Source: Hyphomicrobium sp. (GTDB taxonomy: Bacteria > Pseudomonadota > Alphaproteobacteria > Rhizobiales > Hyphomicrobiaceae). From it: a stretch of 64,000 nucleotides of DNA. Shown here piece by piece: positions 6,204 through 55,487 of this stretch (position 1 is the stretch's first letter; each line of letters starts with the position of its first letter). The notes under the pieces were generated by a model, which was not told the origin of the DNA, did not search any database, and worked only from the letters and a program-made list of their open reading frames with translations. The DNA lies in NCBI GenBank assembly GCA_003987725.1, contig RXJH01000003.1, positions 307,474 to 371,473 on the forward strand, in the 5' to 3' direction. Both the position numbers and the translations under genes were made by a program.

Positions 6204-7105
6204 GGCGAAGGCAGTGACGTTGATGAGCGCGCGGCGGCAGATGCGGCGTAGCTCTCGAGGACAATATCGTCGACGCTGACCGCGGCATCGCCCGCTGCGA
6301 GCGGCTGGCTTTTCTGCTTCGCCTCAAGTGCGCGGTCGAGGCGAAGCATCGCGATCGCAGCGGTCCCGTCGACGGTCCCGATGCGTCCGATCGAAACGTC
6401 TCCTACAAGCACATCGTCGTTCGAGGAGAGGGGAGCCGAACCCGAAATTTTTACGGCGCGCTTTCGAACGACAGTCTTGTTCTGCATGCGCGCGACGATC
6501 TCTTGTCCGACGTAGCAGCCCTTCGAAAACGACACGCCGTTGAAGAGATCGAAGTCGGCTTCGTGCGGATACGCGTCGCCGAATTTATAATCGCGGCCAC
6601 CCTCGGGCACGCCGAGCAAAACGCGAAGCGCGTCGTACTGCCGAAGCGCGATTTCGCTATCCGCATCGGCAAAAGAATCGCGCGAGGGCGCGCCCTCCAC
6701 GATCAGTCGAACCCCAAGTGAGGAATGCCTGGGGTCCGGAAAATGCATGGCCCTATCCACAGGAAAACCCGCAGTTTCGCCGCCCCACGCCGCGTAGATT
6801 TTGAATGAGTCCGAAACGTCCGAGATGATCACATCAGCGCGGAGCTTATACATCGACAGGCGCTTAGCGAGATCGCCGGCGCTCGCGCGGAGAACATCGA
6901 GCAGGTATCCGTCGCCGCGGCGAAGGATAAAAAAGTCGAAAAGGATTTTGCCCTGCGGCGAAAGCAGCGCCGCGTGACGGGCCTCGCCGTCGCGAAGGCC
7001 TTCGACGTCGTTGGTCACCAGGCCTTGCAGCAGCTTTTCACTGTCCTGGCCGGTAACGCTAACGACTCCGCGATCTGCAAGTCGCGCTATCTTTGCGGCA
7101 GACAT
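6200..7105 (-). CDS. ygfZ: YgfZ/GcvT-like folate-binding protein
   Basis: YgfZ proteins bind tetrahydrofolate and help repair or mature certain Fe-S enzymes. The hallmark KGCYVGQE with its reactive cysteine lies at about residue 200, after an N-terminal GcvT-like region (VTGQDSEKLLQGLVTNDV). Length is about 301 aa. I start at the ATG at 7105, preceded by GAGG at a workable distance; an upstream in-frame GTG at 7114 has its ribosome site too close. It is the first gene of the ygfZ-tag-HD unit and is divergent from pyrC with an 83-base gap that must hold both promoters. Confidence 0.9.
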   Translation of the reverse strand: MSAAKIARLADRGVVSVTGQDSEKLLQGLVTNDVEGLRDGEARHAALLSPQGKILFDFFILRRGDGYLLDVLRASAGDLAKRLSMYKLRADVIISDVSDSFKIYAAWGGETAGFPVDRAMHFPDPRHSSLGVRLIVEGAPSRDSFADADSEIALRQYDALRVLLGVPEGGRDYKFGDAYPHEADFDLFNGVSFSKGCYVGQEIVARMQNKTVVRKRAVKISGSAPLSSNDDVLVGDVSIGRIGTVDGTAAIAMLRLDRALEAKQKSQPLAAGDAAVSVDDIVLESYAASAAARSSTSLPSP

Positions 7106-42296: not shown

Positions 42297-43318
42297 GCGC
42301 CGAGCCCATGGCCAGCTCCTCCAATTCACGCGTCGCGCTGTTCATTGCCGCGATGCTGGGAATAGCGGTCGCGATTTGCCTTGTCGTATATTTCGGCATC
42401 TCCGGGGTCTGGGATGCGATCGCGACAGCAGGTTGGCGCGGTATGAGCGCGATCCTCGGCGCCTATATGCTGTCGCTATTTTTCTGCGCGTGGGGGTGGC
42501 GTGTGCTGCTCATCGAAAAGCATTCGCAGCATCGGGGCCTGTTGTTCCTGTGGGCGCGCTGGGTCCGCGACAGCATCGGCAATCTGCTCGCCATCATTCC
42601 CGGAGCCGGCGAGGCGGCGGGAGCGCGCGAATTGAGCAAGCACGGTCTGAAGGTGAGCGTCGCCGCCGCGACGACGATCACCGACATGACGACCGAAATG
42701 ATGAGCCAGCTCATTTATACGTTTCTGGGGCTCGCCATTCTCTTCGTTTATCATCCTGCCGAGCAAGCAGCCTGGTGGGCGGCCGCCGGTCTCGGCATAG
42801 CGACTATCGCCGTCGCGGGATTCGTCATCGCCCAGAAAAATGGACTGATCCTCTTTCTGGAAACGCTCCCGGCGAAGCTCGGCTTCACGCGCGCCTGGGA
42901 TGGCCTATCCGACAGTGAGAGTGTGCATGCCGCCATCCAATCGATCTATCGCGAGAAGGGCGCGGTCAGCGCATCGACCTTCCTGCATCTTTTGGGTTGG
43001 CTCGCGGGCGCAGCGGAAACCTGGATTGCGTTGTGGTTCATGAACCATGCGCTTTCGGCGGGTGACGTACTGTCTCTCGAAAGTCTCGTCTTCGCGCTCC
43101 GCACAGCCGCATTCATCGTTCCCTGGGCGGCCGGCGTTCAGGAGGGCGGTTACGTCGTTATCGGCGCGCTGTTCGGCCTGGGTCCGGACGTGGCGCTCGC
43201 CCTCTCGCTGCTGAAACGTGCCCGCGAAATAATCTCTGGCCTGCCCGGCCTTCTCGTGTGGCATTTCTCTGAAGGCAAGCGCCTTTGGCAGAGCCGCCTT
43301 GCAGCCTCCCGCAAATAG
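42293..43318 (+). CDS. hpnL: Hopanoid-associated membrane protein HpnL
   Basis: A 341-aa protein with about seven to eight hydrophobic segments of the UPF0104/lysylphosphatidylglycerol-synthase transmembrane family; HpnL is the member found in hopanoid clusters. Segments include SRVALFIAAMLGIAVAICLV and LGIATIAVAGFVIA, with the polar region PGAGEAAGARELSKHG between. Role: suggested in moving or handling modified hopanoids, not proven. It is coupled to hpnI by ATGA. No hpnJ, the radical-SAM enzyme that completes the cyclitol ether, lies in this window. Confidence 0.85.
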   Translation: MSAEPMASSSNSRVALFIAAMLGIAVAICLVVYFGISGVWDAIATAGWRGMSAILGAYMLSLFFCAWGWRVLLIEKHSQHRGLLFLWARWVRDSIGNLLAIIPGAGEAAGARELSKHGLKVSVAAATTITDMTTEMMSQLIYTFLGLAILFVYHPAEQAAWWAAAGLGIATIAVAGFVIAQKNGLILFLETLPAKLGFTRAWDGLSDSESVHAAIQSIYREKGAVSASTFLHLLGWLAGAAETWIALWFMNHALSAGDVLSLESLVFALRTAAFIVPWAAGVQEGGYVVIGALFGLGPDVALALSLLKRAREIISGLPGLLVWHFSEGKRLWQSRLAASRK

Positions 43319-43322
43319 CACG

Positions 43323-43341
43323 GGCCCGAACGCAGCGGGCC
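43323..43341 (+). terminator. GC-rich hairpin after hpnL
   Basis: The stem GGCCCG/CGGGCC with a 7-base loop starts five bases after the hpnL stop. No U tract follows, so its terminator role is uncertain. The remaining gap to 43518 has an inverted repeat around GCGCTTAAAGCGC (43432-43444) and otherwise nothing I recognise. Confidence 0.4.
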
Positions 43342-43518
43342 TCGGATCGATGGCCAATCATTAACAGGCGTCTCGGAATTGCCTCGGGCCCATCAATCGC
43401 CCGTTAGGCGAGGATGCTCTGTTGTCTTGGGGCGCTTAAAGCGCTTTACTGTAAAAGACGTCCACGGAACGTGCGCGCGCAGAGCTACAGCCAAGCCAAA
43501 GAATCCCGGAGGCAGCTG

Positions 43519-44061
43519 ATGAGCCAGTTATGGATGCCGGTTTCCGACGCCGACCACATCGAAGGCCGGCGTAATGCGCCTATGACCTTGCTCGAATACG
43601 GCGATTTCGAGTGCCCGTACTGCGCAGAGACCTATCCGGTCATCAAGGCGGTGCAGGACACGATCGGCTTGGACATGCGGTTCGTCTTCAGGCATTTCCC
43701 GCTCACCCGCCTTCATCCGCACGCCGAACACGCAGCTGAAATCTCGGAAGCGGCCAATACGATCGATCGCTTTTGGGAAATGCACGATATCCTTTTCGAG
43801 AACCAGACGGCGCTCGATGACACCCACCTGCTGATTGAGGCAAGAGCTGTCGGCCTGGATGACGAGACCGCTCGCATGGCCTTCGAGGGCCGTTACGCTG
43901 ACCATATCAAGAAAGATTTTCGCGGCGGCGTGCGCAGTGGTGTGAACGGAACGCCGTGCCTGTTCGTTAATGGACAGCGCTTCGATGGCCCGCGCGACGT
44001 GGAAGCCATCGTGGCAGCGCTCGAGGCCACCATTTCCGACACGTCCAAGTTCGACGCCTGA
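43519..44061 (+). CDS. Cytoplasmic DsbA-family thiol oxidoreductase
   Basis: A 180-aa thioredoxin-fold protein with the redox motif FECPYCAE near residue 30, a helical insertion, and the cis-proline strand GTPCLFVNGQRFDG near the end. There is no signal peptide or membrane helix, so it should act in the cytosol, unlike classical DsbA. GGAGG sits 6 bases before the ATG. It is 57 bases upstream of selA on the same strand and may be co-transcribed; a role in selenium or thiol handling is possible but only inferred from position. A tandem 11-base repeat (ACCGTAACGAC twice, 44062-44083) follows its stop. Confidence 0.85.
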   Translation: MSQLWMPVSDADHIEGRRNAPMTLLEYGDFECPYCAETYPVIKAVQDTIGLDMRFVFRHFPLTRLHPHAEHAAEISEAANTIDRFWEMHDILFENQTALDDTHLLIEARAVGLDDETARMAFEGRYADHIKKDFRGGVRSGVNGTPCLFVNGQRFDGPRDVEAIVAALEATISDTSKFDA

Positions 44062-44118
44062 ACCGTAACGACACCGTAACGACGGAACCGGCGTTGAATT
44101 CCTTCCCTTGAGGTCCAA

Positions 44119-45528
44119 GTGGAAATTTCAAGAGCCGCGCTCCGCGACCTGCCCTCCGTCGATGCCGTTCTGAAAAGCGCGACCGCCGCGGTGCTCTTGG
44201 AGCGCTTCGGGCGTTTCGCGACGACAGAGACGATCCGCACCGTGCTTGCGGAAACCCGCGTTGCCTTGAAGTCCGGAACGCACGATGTCCCGACAATCGA
44301 CCAAGTGGCACGTCTGGCGTTGGCCCGATTGGCCGACGGCGATCGCTCAGGGCTCCGTCCGGTGTTCAATCTCACGGGCACCGTTCTCCATACCAATCTC
44401 GGACGCGCTGTGCTCGCCGACGCCGCGATCGAAGCGGCCATCGCAGCCATGCGAGATCCGGTCGCCCTGGAATTCGATTTGGCGACAGGGGCGCGCGGTG
44501 AACGCGACGATCATGTGAACGAGCTTCTCTGCGCTTTGACGGGCGCCGAAGATGCGACGGTCGTCAACAACAACGCCGCCGCCGTCCTTCTTTCGCTCAA
44601 CACACTGGCGGCCGGACGCGAAGCCATTGTCTCTCGCGGCGAGTTGATCGAGATCGGCGGCGCGTTCCGCATGCCCGATATCATGACCCGCGCCGGTGCG
44701 AAGCTCGTCGAAGTCGGGACGACGAACCGAACCCATCCGAAAGATTATGCAGCTGCGATCAATGAAGCGACCGGCGTCATCCTCAAGGTTCATACCTCGA
44801 ACTATCGCATCCTGGGGTTCACGTCCGAAGTCGGCGCCGCCGAACTCGCGCGCATCGCCGCGGCGCAGCAGGTTCCGTTATTGAACGATCTCGGATCCGG
44901 AACCCTCGTCGATTTGTCTCCCTATGGGCTGAAGCGCGAGCCAACCGTGCGGCAAGCCGTGGCGGAGGGCGCCGACGTCGTGACCTTTTCGGGCGACAAG
45001 CTTCTCGGCGGCCCGCAGGCGGGTTTCATTGTCGGCAAGCGTGACATCATCGAAGTCATCAATCGCAATCCGCTGAAACGCGCGCTCCGCGTCGATAAAA
45101 TCCGTCTCGCCGCCATCGAGGCGACGTTGAAGCTTTTTCGCGATCCCGACCGTCTTGCGGAGCGTTTGCCAGCGCTGCGGTTGCTCGCGCGGCCGCGTTT
45201 CGAAATTGAAGATCAGGCGCTCCGCCTGTTGCCGCACATGCAGCACGCCGCGGGACGAGACTTCGCCGTAAGCGTTTGCGAATGCGAAAGTCAGATCGGC
45301 TCCGGTGCGATGCCGCTCGATACGATCCCGAGCGCAGGTCTCCGCATCGTGTCGAACGCCGGCGGCATCGCACTCGAACGATTGGCCGCAGCGCTGCGTG
45401 GCTTGGAGCGGCCGGTCATCGGTCGTTTGGAGGAGGGCGCCATAATTCTCGATCTTCGATGCTTGACCGATGAAGACGCATTTCTATCGGCACTGAGCAC
45501 GCTCGAGCGAGATGCCACGGCAAAATGA
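44119..45528 (+). CDS. selA: L-seryl-tRNA(Sec) selenium transferase
   Basis: SelA converts Ser-tRNA(Sec) to Sec-tRNA(Sec) with selenophosphate from SelD, using PLP. The 469-aa protein has the N-terminal tRNA-binding region, FNLTGTVLHTNLGRAVL, NNAAAVLLSLNTLA, and the PLP lysine in FSGDKLLGGPQAG, with the C-terminal domain intact. The start is a GTG with GAGG 6 bases upstream. Its stop overlaps selB by ATGA, so the two are translated together. Confidence 0.96.
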   Translation: MEISRAALRDLPSVDAVLKSATAAVLLERFGRFATTETIRTVLAETRVALKSGTHDVPTIDQVARLALARLADGDRSGLRPVFNLTGTVLHTNLGRAVLADAAIEAAIAAMRDPVALEFDLATGARGERDDHVNELLCALTGAEDATVVNNNAAAVLLSLNTLAAGREAIVSRGELIEIGGAFRMPDIMTRAGAKLVEVGTTNRTHPKDYAAAINEATGVILKVHTSNYRILGFTSEVGAAELARIAAAQQVPLLNDLGSGTLVDLSPYGLKREPTVRQAVAEGADVVTFSGDKLLGGPQAGFIVGKRDIIEVINRNPLKRALRVDKIRLAAIEATLKLFRDPDRLAERLPALRLLARPRFEIEDQALRLLPHMQHAAGRDFAVSVCECESQIGSGAMPLDTIPSAGLRIVSNAGGIALERLAAALRGLERPVIGRLEEGAIILDLRCLTDEDAFLSALSTLERDATAK

Positions 45529-47594
45529 TCATTGGCACCGCAGGTCATATCGATCACGGCAAGACGGCTCTGGTCAAAGCCTTGACGGGGGTCGACGGCG
45601 ATCGCCTGAAGGAAGAAAAAGCGCGCGGCATAACGATCGATCTTGGCTTCGCATATTTGCCGGCGGCTGGCGGGAAAATACTCGGCTTCATCGACGTACC
45701 GGGCCACGAGCGCTTCGTCCACACCATGCTGGCGGGCGCGAGCGGCATAGACTTCGCTTTGCTAACGGTCGCCGCCGACGACGGGGTGAAGCCGCAAACC
45801 CTTGAGCATCTCGCGATCCTCGATCTTCTCGGCATCGGCAACGGCGTCATCGTTGTGACGAAGGCTGATCTCGTCAGTGACGAACGCATCGGCGATGTTA
45901 CGAGCCAGATCAAAGAAGCCGCTTCAGGCTCCGTGCTCGAGAACGCGGATATCCTGAACGTCTCCGCAATGACGGGACAGGGCATCGATCAGCTCCGCGA
46001 ATATCTCATTGCCGCCGCGTCGATGATCCACGCGCGCTCGGCGGAGGGACGCTTTCGCCTCGCCATCGACCGCGTTTTCACACTGTCTGGCGTCGGCGTC
46101 GTCGTGACGGGCACGGTTCTGTCAGGCTCTGTCCACGTCGGTGATCGAGTTGCGCTCAGCCCATCCGGATTGGAGGCGCGCGTTCGCTCGATACATGCGC
46201 AAAATAGGCCAGCCGACACCGGTCGAGCCGGTGACCGGTGTGCGCTGAATATCGCCGGACCCGCCATCCACAAAGATGCGATACGCCATGGCGACGTCGT
46301 GCTCGATCCCGCGCTTCACGCGCCATCCGACCGCATCGACGCCGTCTTTCGAATATTGCCTTCGGTACAGAAATCCATCGGCCAATGGTTTCCCGTGCGC
46401 TTGCACCATGCCTCCGCCGAAGTCGGCGCGCGCATTGTTCTGCTAGATGATAAATCGCTTCGCCCTGGCGAGTCGGCTGACGTACAACTTGTTCTCGATC
46501 AGCCGATTGCGGCAGGCGTGCCCGATCGCTTCGTTCTGCGCGACGTCTCGGCGCAACGCACGATCGGCGGAGGCAAGTTCATCGATCTCCGCGCGCCGGC
46601 GCGAAAGCGGCGAACGCCGGAACGGCAAGCCCGACGCACCGCATTGGCAATCGACGATCCGCGGACCGCGTTATCGGTTTTGCTTGATACGCCGCCATTT
46701 AGCGTCGATCTGACGGCGTTTGCGCGCGACCGGACGCTCTCTGATGCACAAGTCGATGAGCTTGCTTCTGAAGCCAACCTGATGATCTTGGAAGCCCGCG
46801 ACGCGCGCACGGCCTTATCGCGAGAGCGATGGATATCCTTTGCGGCAAGCTCGCGAGAGCGCGTTGCGGCCTATCATGCCGCGAACCCCGATCTGCAAGG
46901 CATCGGGCGCGAGCAGCTGCGCCTGATGCTCGAACCGCGTTTGTCCAAGACCGCATTCGCTGTCGCCATCCAGAAGTTTTCGGATGACGGCAGCATTGCG
47001 CTCGACGGCGCCTTCGTGCGCCTCGCGTCCCATCACGTACGTTTCGCGCCCGATGACGAAGCCGCATGGAATGCTGTCGCTGCGCTCCTCGGCGGCGAAG
47101 AGCGGTTCCGCCCCCCAAGAGTGCGCGACATCGCCGGCACAACCGGGCGCGCCGAGCGAGATGTCCGCCGTCTGCTGAAGCTCGCCGGCCGCCTGGGCTG
47201 GGTGGATGAAGTGGCGCACGACCACTTCTTTCTCCGCGAAACCGTCCGCGAGATCGTCGCTATCGCCGCCGGTATCGCAGCACAGGCGGAAACCCAAACC
47301 CTCAACGCCGCCGATCTTCGCGACCGCCTCGACAACGGCCGCAAGGTCGCAATTCAGATTTTGGAGTTTTTCGATCGCCACGGCGTTACCCTGCGCAAGG
47401 GCGATCTGCGGCGCATGAATGAGCACCGGCTGGACTTGTTTGGAAACCCCGTGCTTTCGTCAGTCGATACGTACGGAGGTGAATCGTCCCCGGTGGGACG
47501 TTCGGACTTCAAATCCGAGTGGGGCAGCGAGCCTGTCCCAGGTGGGTTCGACTCCCATTCGCCTCCGCCAACCTTTCCAAAAGGGCGGGCCTGA
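45525..47594 (+). CDS. selB: Selenocysteine-specific elongation factor, reading frame runs through selC
   Basis: SelB brings Sec-tRNA(Sec) to UGA codons next to a SECIS. The EF-Tu-like GTPase has GTAGHIDHGKTALVKALTG, DVPGHERFVHTM and TKAD; winged-helix domains follow, and the last conserved part ends about residue 640 (HRLDLFG). The frame then continues without stop for 49 codons to 47594. The tRNA-Sec gene (47475-47570) lies entirely inside this tail, so residues 651-682 are encoded by tRNA sequence. Processing of the tRNA from the selAB transcript would cut off the selB stop. Start: ATG at 45525 inside the selA stop. Confidence 0.94.
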   Translation: MIIGTAGHIDHGKTALVKALTGVDGDRLKEEKARGITIDLGFAYLPAAGGKILGFIDVPGHERFVHTMLAGASGIDFALLTVAADDGVKPQTLEHLAILDLLGIGNGVIVVTKADLVSDERIGDVTSQIKEAASGSVLENADILNVSAMTGQGIDQLREYLIAAASMIHARSAEGRFRLAIDRVFTLSGVGVVVTGTVLSGSVHVGDRVALSPSGLEARVRSIHAQNRPADTGRAGDRCALNIAGPAIHKDAIRHGDVVLDPALHAPSDRIDAVFRILPSVQKSIGQWFPVRLHHASAEVGARIVLLDDKSLRPGESADVQLVLDQPIAAGVPDRFVLRDVSAQRTIGGGKFIDLRAPARKRRTPERQARRTALAIDDPRTALSVLLDTPPFSVDLTAFARDRTLSDAQVDELASEANLMILEARDARTALSRERWISFAASSRERVAAYHAANPDLQGIGREQLRLMLEPRLSKTAFAVAIQKFSDDGSIALDGAFVRLASHHVRFAPDDEAAWNAVAALLGGEERFRPPRVRDIAGTTGRAERDVRRLLKLAGRLGWVDEVAHDHFFLRETVREIVAIAAGIAAQAETQTLNAADLRDRLDNGRKVAIQILEFFDRHGVTLRKGDLRRMNEHRLDLFGNPVLSSVDTYGGESSPVGRSDFKSEWGSEPVPGGFDSHSPPPTFPKGRA
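47475..47570 (+). tRNA. selC: tRNA-Sec (TCA anticodon), nested in selB
   Basis: All hallmarks of a bacterial selenocysteine tRNA are visible: an 8-bp acceptor stem (GGAGGTGA with TCGCCTCC, one G-U), a 6-bp D stem with a 4-base loop (CGTCCC-CGGT-GGGACG), an anticodon stem TCGGA/TCCGA around CTTCAAA (anticodon TCA), a long variable arm (TGGGGCAG/CTGTCCCA) and encoded CCA. At 96 bases it is the usual size. It lies on the same strand as selB, within its coding frame. Confidence 0.97.
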
Positions 47595-47600
47595 TGCGCG

Positions 47601-48647
47601 TCAGAAAATATTGATCTGCGGATCTCCGGCTAGAACGGAGCCGATGATGCGCGCGTTCGGATGCCCGGCTGCTTCTATGGTGTTGCGCAAGTCGTCCGCG
47701 TGCTCGGGAGCGCAGGCGATGAGGAGGCCGCCCGATGTCTGCGGATCGGTCAGAAGCACGCGCGCCGTTTTCGGCAGGCTCGCCGGCAAGAGCACTTCGT
47801 GGCCGTAGCTGGTCCAATTGCGCCCTGACGCGCCTGTCGCAAATCCTGCCTCGGCGAGGACTCGGGCGGATGCCAGAAAAGGAATGCGGTCGTAAGCGAT
47901 GTCGATACCGACGCCACTTCCGCGCGCCATTTCGAGAGCATGTCCGAGAAGGCCAAAGCCGGTCACGTCCGTAATGGCGTGAACGTGCGCGTTCCCGCCC
48001 AATTCAGCGCCAACGCGATTGAGCAAAGTCGTCGACGCGATCATCTCGGCGTAGGCGTCGGCTGGAAGCGCGCGTTTCTTGAATGCCGCGGAATAGATGC
48101 CGACGCCGATGCCTTTCGTCAGAATGAGAGCGTCGCCGGGCCGCGCGCCCGCATTCCGGCGAATGTTCTGCGGCTTCGCGAGACCGATGACCGCCAGCCC
48201 ATAGATCGGTTCGGGCGTGTCGATCGAATGCCCGCCCGCAACGGGAATTCCGGCCTCGGAGCAAATGGAGGCGCCGCCCGCAAGGATTTCCCGCACCGTC
48301 TCGACCGGCAGCTTGTCGAGCGGCATCCCGAGGATCGCCAGCGCCATGATGGGCCGCGCACCCATGGCGTAGACGTCGGAAATAGCGTTGGTCGCGGCAA
48401 TGCGCCCGAAGTCACGCGCATCATCCACCATCGGCATGAAGAAGTCGGTCGTCGCCACGACGCATTGATCGTCGTCGATGCGCCAGACGGCGGCGTCGTC
48501 GCCGGTTTCCGTGCCGACCAGGAGCTGCGCGAACGGACCGGTACTCGGATGACCGGCGAGCAATTGCTGCAGGACTGAGGGCGCGAGCTTGCAACCGCAG
48601 CCACCGCCATGCGCCAATTCGGTCAAACGAATAACAGGTCCAAGCAT
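47601..48647 (-). CDS. selD: Selenide, water dikinase
   Basis: SelD makes selenophosphate from selenide and ATP, the selenium donor for SelA. The 348-aa protein carries the glycine-rich loop [13 protein letters not shown] with the catalytic cysteine (Cys rather than Sec), the metal and ATP residues in GDDAAVWR and [11 protein letters not shown], and [19 protein letters not shown]. It is convergent with selB, the stops only 6 bases apart, and divergent from the permease. An ATG at 48647 with AGAGG upstream starts it. All four sel genes are thus contiguous. Confidence 0.96.
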
Positions 48648-48793
48648 TCTTTACGTACCTCTTCGGAAACGAAAGTTCCTAGCGCGGAGAAAGAAATAAT
48701 AAAATTACTTGATCTTCGGTGCCAGGATATAGGTGGACGGTCCGTATACGCCATTGCAGAAATGTTTTGCCCGAAGTGTCGTTGGAGGAATCC

Positions 48794-49861
48794 ATGAACG
48801 CCGGTCGTCAATCCGATATGACGCTAAGGTGGGCCGTCTTCTTGATGATCGCAATAGTCGGGCTTTTCTACGTAAAATGGTTTCCATACTATAACCGCGC
48901 GTTCATTGCGGCCGATCAACATTCGATCGGTTATTCGATATTGATGGGCACGGCCACGGCTCCGCCAGCAGCCTCATGGGACGCAGCATTCGGCTACGCC
49001 CTGGCCTATGGCAAAGCCATCTGGCAGGCGATGGTGCTCGGCTTGCTGCTGGGCTCAGGAATCCAGGCACTTCTACCGGCCGACTGGATTGCGCGCATAC
49101 TGGGCAAGACGAACTTCGGCACCGTCGCGGTTGCTGGCATTCTCTCTGTGACGAGCATGATGTGCACGTGCTGCGCCGCGCCTGTCGTCGTCGGGCTGCG
49201 CGAACGGCAGGCGTCTCCCGGCGCCGCCATCGCCTTCTGGCTTGGCAACACGGTACTCAATCCCGCAACGCTCGTATTCATGGGATTTGTCCTCGGTTGG
49301 AATTGGACAGCGCTTCGCATCCTTTTGGGAATCCCGATGGTGTTCGGTCTCGGCTACCTCATCAATCAGATGGTGACGCCAAAGGAAGCCGCAGCGGCCG
49401 AGGCCCACATCACAGCGCTCGCGGCTAAATCGGATATTCCCGGCTTGACCACGCCGAACGCATTCGTCCGCTGGATCGAAATCTTCCTTCGGATGTCGCT
49501 ACGCCTGATCCCGGAGTACATCGTCCTCGTTTTACTGCTAGGAGCGGCGCGCGCGTTTCTATTTCCCGAAATCGGGCCCGCCATCGACAACAACCTCGGC
49601 TGGATAGTCGCGTTTGCGGTTGTCGGAATGCTATTCGTGATTCCGACGGCGGGCGAGGTGCCGATCATTCAGGCGATGCTCGCACTCGGCATGGGCGTTG
49701 GACCTGCGGCCGCGCTATTGATGACGCTGCCGCCGGTGAGCTTGCCCTCTCTAGCCATGGTCAGCGGATCGTTCCGCCTGCAGACACTTCTGACAGTCGC
49801 AGGCGGAGTTGTAATTTTTGGCATCGTCGCCGGCCTGATCGCCGCCGGCTTCAGAATATGA
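48794..49861 (+). CDS. UPF0718/ArsP-like permease in the selenium island
   Basis: A 355-aa membrane protein with about eight hydrophobic segments. The pair of conserved loops SMMCTCCAAPVVVGLRERQA with LGNTVLNPATLVFMGFVLGW, and later VIPTAGEVPIIQAMLALGMG with TLPPVSLPSLAMVS, matches the permease family PF03773 (ArsP_1), whose members include organoarsenical exporters. Three cysteines in the first loop could contact a soft element. Its place between selD and fdhE suggests selenium transport, but that is inference. GGAGG precedes the ATG at 48794; the frame opens earlier without a good site. It converges with fdhE 7 bases away. Confidence 0.85.
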   Translation: MNAGRQSDMTLRWAVFLMIAIVGLFYVKWFPYYNRAFIAADQHSIGYSILMGTATAPPAASWDAAFGYALAYGKAIWQAMVLGLLLGSGIQALLPADWIARILGKTNFGTVAVAGILSVTSMMCTCCAAPVVVGLRERQASPGAAIAFWLGNTVLNPATLVFMGFVLGWNWTALRILLGIPMVFGLGYLINQMVTPKEAAAAEAHITALAAKSDIPGLTTPNAFVRWIEIFLRMSLRLIPEYIVLVLLLGAARAFLFPEIGPAIDNNLGWIVAFAVVGMLFVIPTAGEVPIIQAMLALGMGVGPAAALLMTLPPVSLPSLAMVSGSFRLQTLLTVAGGVVIFGIVAGLIAAGFRI

Positions 49862-52409: not shown

Positions 52410-55400
52410 TCAGACCTCGCCCTCAGGCCCGTTGCTCGGCTCGATATTCACGAGGAACGCTTTGAATTCGGGCGTCTGCGTGTTGGCATCGCCGACCGAC
52501 GGCGTCAAAATGTTCGCGCCGTAGCCCTTCTTCGCCAAACCCGTGAACCCCCAGTGAAGAGGAACACCGATGACGTGCGTCGGCTTTCCTGCGACCGTCA
52601 TCGGCTTGATCCGCTTGGTGACGAAAGCTTTGCAGATCATGTGGCCACGCTTCGAACTCACGCGAACCCAGCCGTTGTTCGTGATGCCCTTTTCCTTCGC
52701 TAGAATTTCTCCGATCTCGATGAATTCCTGCGGCTGCAGAATCGCGTTGATCAGCGCGTGCTTTGTCCAGAAGTGGAAATGCTCGGTCAGCCGGTATGTG
52801 GTTCCGACGTAGGGGAACTGTTCCGGCGTTCCGAAGTCGGCGCGATCGTCAGCGAACACACGCGCCGCCGGATTGTTCTGAACCTTCGGATGGAGCAAGT
52901 TCTCGACTGGCGATTCCATCGGCTCGTAGTGCTCGGGGAATGGTCCGTCCACCATCTGATCGAGCGCGAAGAAGCGGCCTGTTCCTTCCGAGTTCATGAT
53001 GAAGGGGCCGACACCATCTGACGGTTTGATCGTCGGGCCGTAATCGGGAACGTCGATGCCGACCCATCGGCTACCGTCCCATTGGATGATCGGTTTGGCG
53101 GGATTCCACGGGTTGCCCGCAACGTCCGAGCTGGCGCGATTGTAAAGAATTCGCCGGTTGGCCGGCCAAGACCACGCCCAATCCGGCGTGATGCCCTGGT
53201 CGCGCGGATCGTGGGTATCGCGGCGGGCCATCATGTTGCCCTTCTCGGTATAGGAACCCGTGAAGATCCAGCAGCCGCTCTCGGTCGTACCATCGTCGCG
53301 CAATTGTCCAAAGGTATCGAGCTGCTGGCCCGCCTTGATTGCGATCGCTCCGGAAGCGTCCTTGATGTCGGCCCGCGCCCTTCCGTTCATTTCCTTCGCC
53401 AGCTCATCGGCACTCGGTTCGACGGGGTCGGTGTAATTCCACGTGAGCTTCAGAATGGGGTCTGGGAAGGCGCCCCCTTCCTTGCGATAAAGCTCACGCA
53501 TCCGGTGGAAAATGCCGGCCATGATCCAGATATCGGATTTTGCTTTGGCGGGAGGTTCGGCGGCTTTCCAATGCCATTGCAGCCAGCGCGCCGAATTGAC
53601 GAGCGTCCCGTCTTCTTCGGCGAAGCACGTCGTCGGCAACTGGAAGACTTCGGTCTCTATTTTCGCAGGATCGGACGGATTGAACGGCCCGACGCTTTCC
53701 CAGAACCGCGACGTCTCCGTGTCGAGTGGGTCCATGACGACGAGGTACTTGAGTTTGCTCAGTCCACGCCGGATCTTGTTCTTTTCGGGGAACGCCTGCA
53801 GCGGATTGAAGCCCTGGCAGATGTAACCGTTGATCTCGCCATGAACCATCATCTCGAAGGCTTTGATGATGTCGTACATCGGAACATCGAGCTTCGGCAG
53901 ATAGTCGTACGCCCAATTGTTTTCGGCGGTCGCGGCATCTCCGAACATCGTCTTCTGGAAGCTGACGAAGAACTTGCGATAATTCTGCCAGTAACTCATC
54001 TGGTTCGGACGCAGCGGTTTGAACTGCCGCGTCTTCATGTAATCGTCGAACGTCTGCTCCTGGTCTTTCGGCAAGGTCAGGTAGCCGGGAATCTGGTTGG
54101 ACAGCAGCCCGATGTCGGTAAGTCCCTGAATGTTGGAATGGCCGCGCAGAGCATTCATGCCGCCACCGGCGACGCCAATGTTGCCAAGCAGAAGCTGCAC
54201 CATCGCCATCGTGCGAATGTTCTGCGAACCGACGGAATGTTGCGTCCAGCCGAGAGCGAAAAGGCTGGTCATCGCCTTGTCGGGAAGGCACGTTCCCGCG
54301 ATCAGATTACAAACGGTGAGGTATTTATCGACCGGCGTACCGCAGATGCGGCTGACCATCTCCGGTGTGTACCGATCCACGTGCTGGCGCATGAGATTGA
54401 TGACGCAACGCGGATTTTGCCACGTGTCGTCGATCTTCGCAAAGCCTTGGTCGTCGAGTTCGTATTGCCAGTCGGTTTTGTCGTAACTGTGCGTATCGGC
54501 ATTGTAGCCGCTGAAGAGACCGTCTTTGAAGCTGAAGCCCTCTTTGACGATCAGGCTGGCATTGGTAAAGGCGCGCACGTATTCGTGCTGAATTTGATCC
54601 TTTTCCAAGAGATAGCGGATGACGCCCGACAGGAACGCGATGTCCGTCCCCGGCCGGATCGGCGCGTAAGAATCGGCAACCGACGCCGTACGCGTAAAGC
54701 GCGGATCGACGACGACGAGCTTGGCGCCATTATGGATCTTGGCTTCGATGACCCATTTGAAACCGCAAGGATGGGCTTCGGCCGCATTGCCGCCCATGAC
54801 GATCACCACATTGGCATTCTTGATATCCTGCCAAGTGTTGGTCATTGCGCCGCGACCGAATGTTGGAGCCAGACTGGCTACCGTCGGCCCGTGTCAGACA
54901 CGGGCCTGATTGTCGAAGACAAGCATTCCGAACGCGCGGGCCACCTTCCATGTCAGCAGCGCGGTTTCGTTCGATGAGGCCGATGCCGCGAGCATTCCGG
55001 TCGTGAGCCACCGGTTGACGGTTCCGCCTTGCTCGTTCTTCGCGATGAAGTGCGCGTCGCGATCGTCTTTCATCAGCCGGGCGATGCGGTCGAGCGCGAA
55101 ATCCCAGGTGACTTCCTTGAATTCATTGCTGCCTGGCGCGCGATATTTCGGAACCTGTAGCCGCCCGGGCGAATGCACCACGTCGAGGAGGGCCGAGCCC
55201 TTCGGACAAAGCGTGCCGCGGTTCACCGGATGGTCCGGATCGCCTTCGATGTGCATGATGTTCGCGTGTGAATTCTTCGCACCGTCGCCCGACGTGTAGA
55301 TCAGGATGCCGCATGCAACCGAGCAATAGGTGCAGGTGTTTCGGGTTTCCTTGGCAGCGGCAAGCTTGAAGGGCCGAACGGATTCAGCCAAAGCGACACC

Positions 55401-55487
55401 GCACCCTCCAAATCCCATCGCGCCCATGCTTGACGAAGCGAGCGTCGCACCGGACAGCTTGATGAACCCTCTGCGTGTCAGTGTCAT
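52410..55487 (-). CDS. fdoG: Selenocysteine-containing formate dehydrogenase alpha subunit (UGA at codon 198)
   Basis: The catalytic alpha subunit of membrane-bound formate dehydrogenase, 1025 residues including selenocysteine, exported by Tat (TRRGFIK signal). The N-terminal [4Fe-4S] cysteines are in CTYCSVACG. The reading frame meets TGA at 54894-54896 in the context [19 protein letters not shown], identical around the site to E. coli FdnG/FdoG, where UGA is Sec. A SECIS hairpin follows it. It would oxidise formate with bis-molybdopterin, reducing the beta subunit. Simple gene callers will split it into two genes (55487-54894 and 54845-52410). Downstream partners are fdoH, fdoI and fdhE. 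Confidence 0.96.
54856..54896 (-). promoter_or_regulatory. Bacterial SECIS element of fdoG
   Basis: Right after the UGA, with the same 11-base spacer as E. coli fdhF, the RNA can fold into an upper stem GG-U-AGCC/GGCUCC with one bulged U and loop AGUCU, and a lower stem CCGA/UCGG. The bulged U and a G-U in the loop are the features SelB recognises. It lies in the coding sequence at 54856-54893, the UGA being 54894-54896. Confidence 0.85.

Follow-up and report, generated by a model that had tools for sequence, protein, structure and literature searches.

A tRNA-Sec gene nested in frame within selB of Hyphomicrobium, in a reading frame that appears to be held by selection among related loci

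Our analysis of a 64,000-nt stretch of DNA from Hyphomicrobium sp. (assembly GCA_003987725.1, contig RXJH01000003.1, positions 307,474-371,473 of the forward strand; hereafter the window, whose own numbering is used for all of its positions) found that the selB ORF remains open through the entire tRNA-Sec gene selC, and comparison with related loci indicates that the frame in which selB reads the tRNA appears to be held by selection. The window locus has the nested selB-selC arrangement known from Alphaproteobacteria through a 2021 paper by Mukai (IJMS 22:4605, PMC8124441). That paper reported selC nested in selB across diverse Alphaproteobacteria, called it the first such case in bacteria, and hypothesized that processing of the tRNA destroys the selB message to create a non-stop selB mRNA. 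The nested arrangement was thus already known, and the processing mechanism already proposed, in that work (PMC8124441). What is new here is a test of frame retention against drift, which is absent from the text of the Mukai paper, where the sole remark about frame is that the 96-nt length of the tRNA may help to keep it. Passages of a 2022 review and a 2026 review, both citing Mukai, repeat processing as a possible mechanism, while our literature search, which had most subscription papers outside its reach, found no experimental test of the nested selB-selC mechanism.

The selB ORF of the window (45525-47594, + strand) encodes 689 aa from ATG to TGA without an internal stop and matches TIGR00475 with 430.8 bits over residues 1-631. 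Its downstream portion contains selC (47475-47570, + strand), a 96-nt tRNA-Sec with its CCA encoded in the DNA, which was identified by both ARAGORN (anticodon tca) and Rfam RF01852 (47475-47566, 82.7 bits against a gathering score of 47), so that a UCA anticodon accompanies a score above the gathering threshold. The tRNA begins in frame at selB codon 651 and its 32 codons correspond to SelB residues 651-682, preceded by an 11-codon linker that separates it from the last conserved SelB motif, DLF (47442-47474, + strand), and followed by a tail of 7 codons plus the stop (47571-47594, + strand). The TGA itself occupies 47592-47594, ending 24 nt past the tRNA. Thus, the earlier note was right to read selB through the whole of selC on the same strand to a TGA at 47592. 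It had also placed the end of conserved SelB sequence at about residue 640, ahead of the tRNA, and this was likewise confirmed: the tRNA lies outside conserved SelB, because the TIGR00475 match ends at residue 631 and the alignment to the best solved relative, 5lzb chain z, which we take to be E. coli SelB, extends only as far as residue 629. A genome-wide search with RF01852 returned 11 matches, only two of which exceeded the cut-off, namely the window selC and a 52.6-bit match that ARAGORN called tRNA-Ser, and a second tRNA-Sec in this genome is accordingly not supported.

Like the nested loci of Mukai (PMC8124441), in which the tRNA is mostly 96 nt and the selB stop often overlaps the next start, the window carries the entire tRNA-Sec in frame in selB, beginning with a GGA codon and finishing with CCA, and it fits the nested type in having a tRNA length that is a multiple of 3, GGA first, and CCA/CCN last. 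Mukai (PMC8124441) also described partly overlapping selB and selC in Dyella/Luteibacter. In our Dyella loci (L035, L042, and L061), selB similarly enters selC with the linker in the same register as in the nested loci, but unlike the window, it stops inside the tRNA at nucleotides 46-48. The same paper retells a further case, a tRNA-Lys inside cox1 of Armadillidium vulgare mitochondria, which resembles the window in having a full tRNA in direct orientation within a coding region and differs from it in belonging to a compact mitochondrial genome and in that its protein and tRNA are not partners. Upstream of the window selB, selA (L-seryl-tRNA(Sec) selenium transferase; 44119-45528, + strand; TIGR00474, E=2.5e-177) ends in a TGA that overlaps the selB ATG (ATGA). 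This overlap suggests one transcript, and selABC is probably transcribed as a unit. The selenide water dikinase gene selD (47601-48647, - strand) is convergent and lies 6 nt after the selB stop. Further Sec-related features include a SECIS_3 element (54841-54899, - strand; RF01989, 78.5 bits) located within a formate dehydrogenase-N alpha gene that starts at 55487 on the - strand (TIGR01553, 1214.8 bits), with fdhE present further along.

The nested arrangement is widespread among relatives. Within the genus, 13 of 22 genomes had a SelB match (E 1e-60), and all 13 of these were nested. The wider survey was queried with SelB residues 1-640, so that the tail could not attract matches, and covered overlapping sets of genomes that were at least 90% complete, with SelB matches in 26 of 79 genomes at the level of family, 31 of 397 for the order, 63 of 387 for the class, and 61 of 397 for the phylum. 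The resulting 167 rows comprised 29 nested loci, 3 that overlapped partly, 72 with a selB stop before selC, 52 without a tRNA-Sec within 1,500 nt, 7 with alignments short of residue 600, and 4 at a contig end; in one additional row (L278), tRNA-Sec was absent from the stretch taken. Another locus set consisted of the best 80 of 564 matches to a tail-bearing query, and for this reason we also give survey-only figures below. Pooling the genus, survey, and tail-query sets yielded 175 distinct loci in which a tRNA-Sec follows selB on the same strand, including 83 nested, 84 with an earlier selB stop, and 8 partial. The tRNA measured 96 nt in 77 of the 83 nested loci. We next placed these loci on a tree of 230 SelB cores built with FastTree, from which the 7 short and 4 contig-end rows were omitted. 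A single clade of 112 tips contained all 83 nested loci, the window's included, together with 19 tips with an earlier stop, 7 partial, and 3 without tRNA-Sec within 1,500 nt. On this one tree, the clade contains at least 16 switches to or from the nested or partly nested state, counted irrespective of direction. Nesting is consequently dispensable, given these changes, the 19 earlier-stop tips, and the 3 tips lacking a tRNA-Sec within 1,500 nt. It should be noted that the 19 earlier-stop loci are not all independent, since 9 of them have a TGA inside the tRNA in common with the 7 partial loci.

A single open frame through a single tRNA is unremarkable by chance. Outside the nested clade, 53 of 66 non-nested tRNA-Sec genes were open in the nested register. 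Together with the 16 or more changes of state, this openness could favor a neutral accident, in which the selB stop codon was simply lost without consequence. The distribution of frames across loci speaks strongly against it, and we regard such an accident as extremely improbable. The tRNA is read in a single register at all 83 nested loci, although the other two registers are open through it in 74 and 75 of them, and the 7 in-clade partial loci share that register, whereas selB genes that stop before selC are found in all three registers (30, 32, and 22 of 84). Over a summed branch length of 21.3, the linker of the nested tips changed in length at least 38 times, generating 23 lengths from 0 to 99 nt, every one a multiple of 3, and re-anchoring the measurement on the DLF motif gave identical numbers. 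The 19 in-clade earlier-stop loci were instead spread over frames 7/7/5, with 12 frame changes on a branch length of 8.2. If frame did not matter, out-of-frame nested loci would be expected, because a simulated +1 or +2 shift at the end of the core still passed the whole tRNA in 113 of 166 readings, yet none of the 83 nested loci was out of frame. The result was the same for the survey and genus loci with the tail-query loci left out (29 of 29 nested loci in frame, with 9 linker lengths and 11 changes). Taking the chance per event as roughly 0.42, the probability comes to 8e-5 over 11 events and to 7e-15 over 38, values that are approximate because the tips are related and all change counts rest on a single FastTree tree. 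According to the earlier note, relatives with a selB stop before selC would reduce the nesting to local drift. Such relatives do exist (19 of the 112 in-clade tips), but drift fails to explain 83 in-frame nested loci that kept one frame through at least 38 changes of linker length, and it was rejected. Overall, with one register in 83 of 83 loci, linker changes that are all multiples of 3, and mixed frames where selB stops earlier, selection appears to hold the frame.

One candidate for the target of this selection is the protein itself, with the linker and tRNA-encoded peptide serving as a functional C-terminal extension of SelB. The frame kept in all 83 nested and all 7 in-clade partial loci is compatible with this, and a V[LH]xS-like motif is seen repeatedly in the linkers of the 12 genus loci. 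Three Sinorhizobium plasmids also retain a 5' tRNA remnant in frame, even with no complete tRNA-Sec in the flank examined; tRNA remnants in Sinorhizobium meliloti were reported by Mukai (PMC8124441). However, the linker ranges from 0 to 99 nt, and in the 12 genus loci the dN/dS (pooled over all pairs by simple counting) was ~0.59 for the 10 codons that precede the tRNA compared to 0.09 in the core, while the tail after the tRNA varied widely. The 13 remnant codons of the three Sinorhizobium plasmids, which constitute a very small sample, differ by amino acid changes only (3, 2, and 1 nonsynonymous codons per pair and 0 synonymous), and an ordinary stop precedes selC in 72 of the 167 survey rows. 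We therefore consider a functional extension improbable. The comparison of SelB C-termini that the earlier note called for shows that the reading frame is kept among nested relatives, while the linker peptide is, as judged from its divergence, poorly conserved and the tail is variable. From this poor conservation, we infer that selection may act on passage through the tRNA rather than on the peptide.

Several relatives carry variants of the locus. In Sinorhizobium meliloti pSymA (L269), S. chiapasense plasmid pA (L270), and Mesorhizobium temperatum (L095), the nested tRNA breaks off at the anticodon loop or just past it. The break falls either after GAC TTC AAA or two codons further along, and selB runs on in frame into other sequence. 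In S. chiapasense, a complete tRNA-Sec is found ~2 kb downstream (6559-6655 of that locus). The three breaks resemble integration at the anticodon loop, but no integrase was identified in the ORF lists. In Microvirga calopogonii (L092), an interruption lies in the 3' half of the nested tRNA, selB remains open, and tRNA-Sec is absent within 1,500 nt. At a locus outside the nested clade (L225, class-level genome G499, tRNA at 1963-2058), selB runs into selC in another register and terminates within it, which is a probable second origin of selB-selC overlap. An Ensifer adhaerens plasmid (L271) has its selB TGA directly before the tRNA (TGA GGA AGG), while L272, L273, and L276 of related genera are nested; this looks like a loss of nesting.

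Selection might alternatively maintain translational coupling to a downstream ORF that starts in or near the selB stop. The window has a TGATG overlap at this site, where the ATG opens a 6-codon mini-ORF (47594-47614, + strand), and in many relatives one of two small protein families starts there instead. A start of one of these families lies within the selB stop in 35 of the 83 nested loci (125-126 aa in 9 loci and 149-187 aa in 26), 18 more have a homologue on the same strand no more than 300 nt away, and 1 more has it further off, so that 54 of 83 have a downstream ORF homologue at, near, or further after the stop. The two families are probably ORF1 and ORF2 of Mukai, and one member of each (L116 and L153) had no Pfam match up to E 0.1. 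No homologue was found in the examined flank (0.4-4 kb) of the other 29 nested loci, the window among them, and these are nevertheless all in frame with 8 linker lengths and 8 changes, which suggests that the frame is held by selection in these loci as well. Unlike many of Mukai's nested loci, in which overlap of the selB stop with an ORF1/ORF2 start is frequent without being universal, the window has only its mini-ORF, with selD convergent behind, and neither family was found in its genome by searches run without a positive control. Coupling to a downstream ORF would be a partial answer at best and is hard to hold for the window; as the general explanation, we find it highly improbable.

The earlier note had raised the alternative that selC has its own promoter inside selB. 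If such a promoter lay within the 3' part of selB, the tRNA would derive mostly from a short transcript and the SelB tail would be a tolerated by-product. Synonymous divergence is mildly consistent with this, as pS over the final 30 codons ahead of the tRNA (0.47-0.51) was somewhat below that of the 70 codons upstream (0.50-0.87). In addition, the selB stop lies no more than 60 nt before selC in 63 of 85 non-nested tips, where a separate selC promoter would likewise have to sit in selB. On the other hand, a scan for sigma-70-type promoters, other types being outside its coverage, found no site on the + strand of 45102-47474, and the sigma-70 consensus scan of 43300-48800 found 2 sites compared to 1.0 expected. 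A tolerated tail also gives no reason for the frame to be kept through at least 38 linker changes. The search thus yielded nothing firm for an internal promoter, and we judge this reading unlikely.

The explanation we favor, with confidence barely above an even balance, is that SelB and tRNA-Sec are competing alternative products of each selB-selC transcript. Either ribosomes would continue through the tRNA to the SelB stop that follows it, or the tRNA would fold and be released by RNase P and 3' nucleases, in which case the selB message would lack its stop and would presumably be rescued. As the two products would exclude each other on any one transcript, SelB would be limited relative to its tRNA. 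Passage of ribosomes through the tRNA would most likely compete with tRNA folding and processing. This processing conflict is plausible and identical to the proposal of Mukai (PMC8124441). Competing products are consistent with the single register of the 83 nested loci, the 38 or more in-frame linker changes, the higher dN/dS of the linker relative to the core, the ATGA overlap of selA and selB, and the presence of smpB in the window's genome. Several observations weigh against this reading. Nesting is dispensable in the clade, as described above; an alpha-tmRNA search found no match in the window's genome, even though its positive control was found in Caulobacter; and the fold of 47415-47625 was only slightly better than that of shuffled sequences (z -1.6). 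Furthermore, a linker dN/dS below 1 leaves room for constraint on the peptide, and the 54 nested loci with a downstream ORF homologue leave room for coupling. A more specific version, which we offer tentatively as a possibility rather than an expectation, is that selection in this clade keeps a ribosome-passable frame that needs neither a particular peptide nor a downstream gene, and that regulation acts on the passage itself, in which the ribosome would unfold the tRNA and keep RNase P from acting.

Retention of the frame takes the published hypothesis beyond annotation and closer to evidence of selection. If passage is indeed what is regulated, each selB-selC transcript would act as a one-molecule switch, spent either as mRNA for a translation factor or as the tRNA of that factor. 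A transcript that must serve as one or the other would fix how much SelB there is relative to tRNA-Sec with no need for a regulator.
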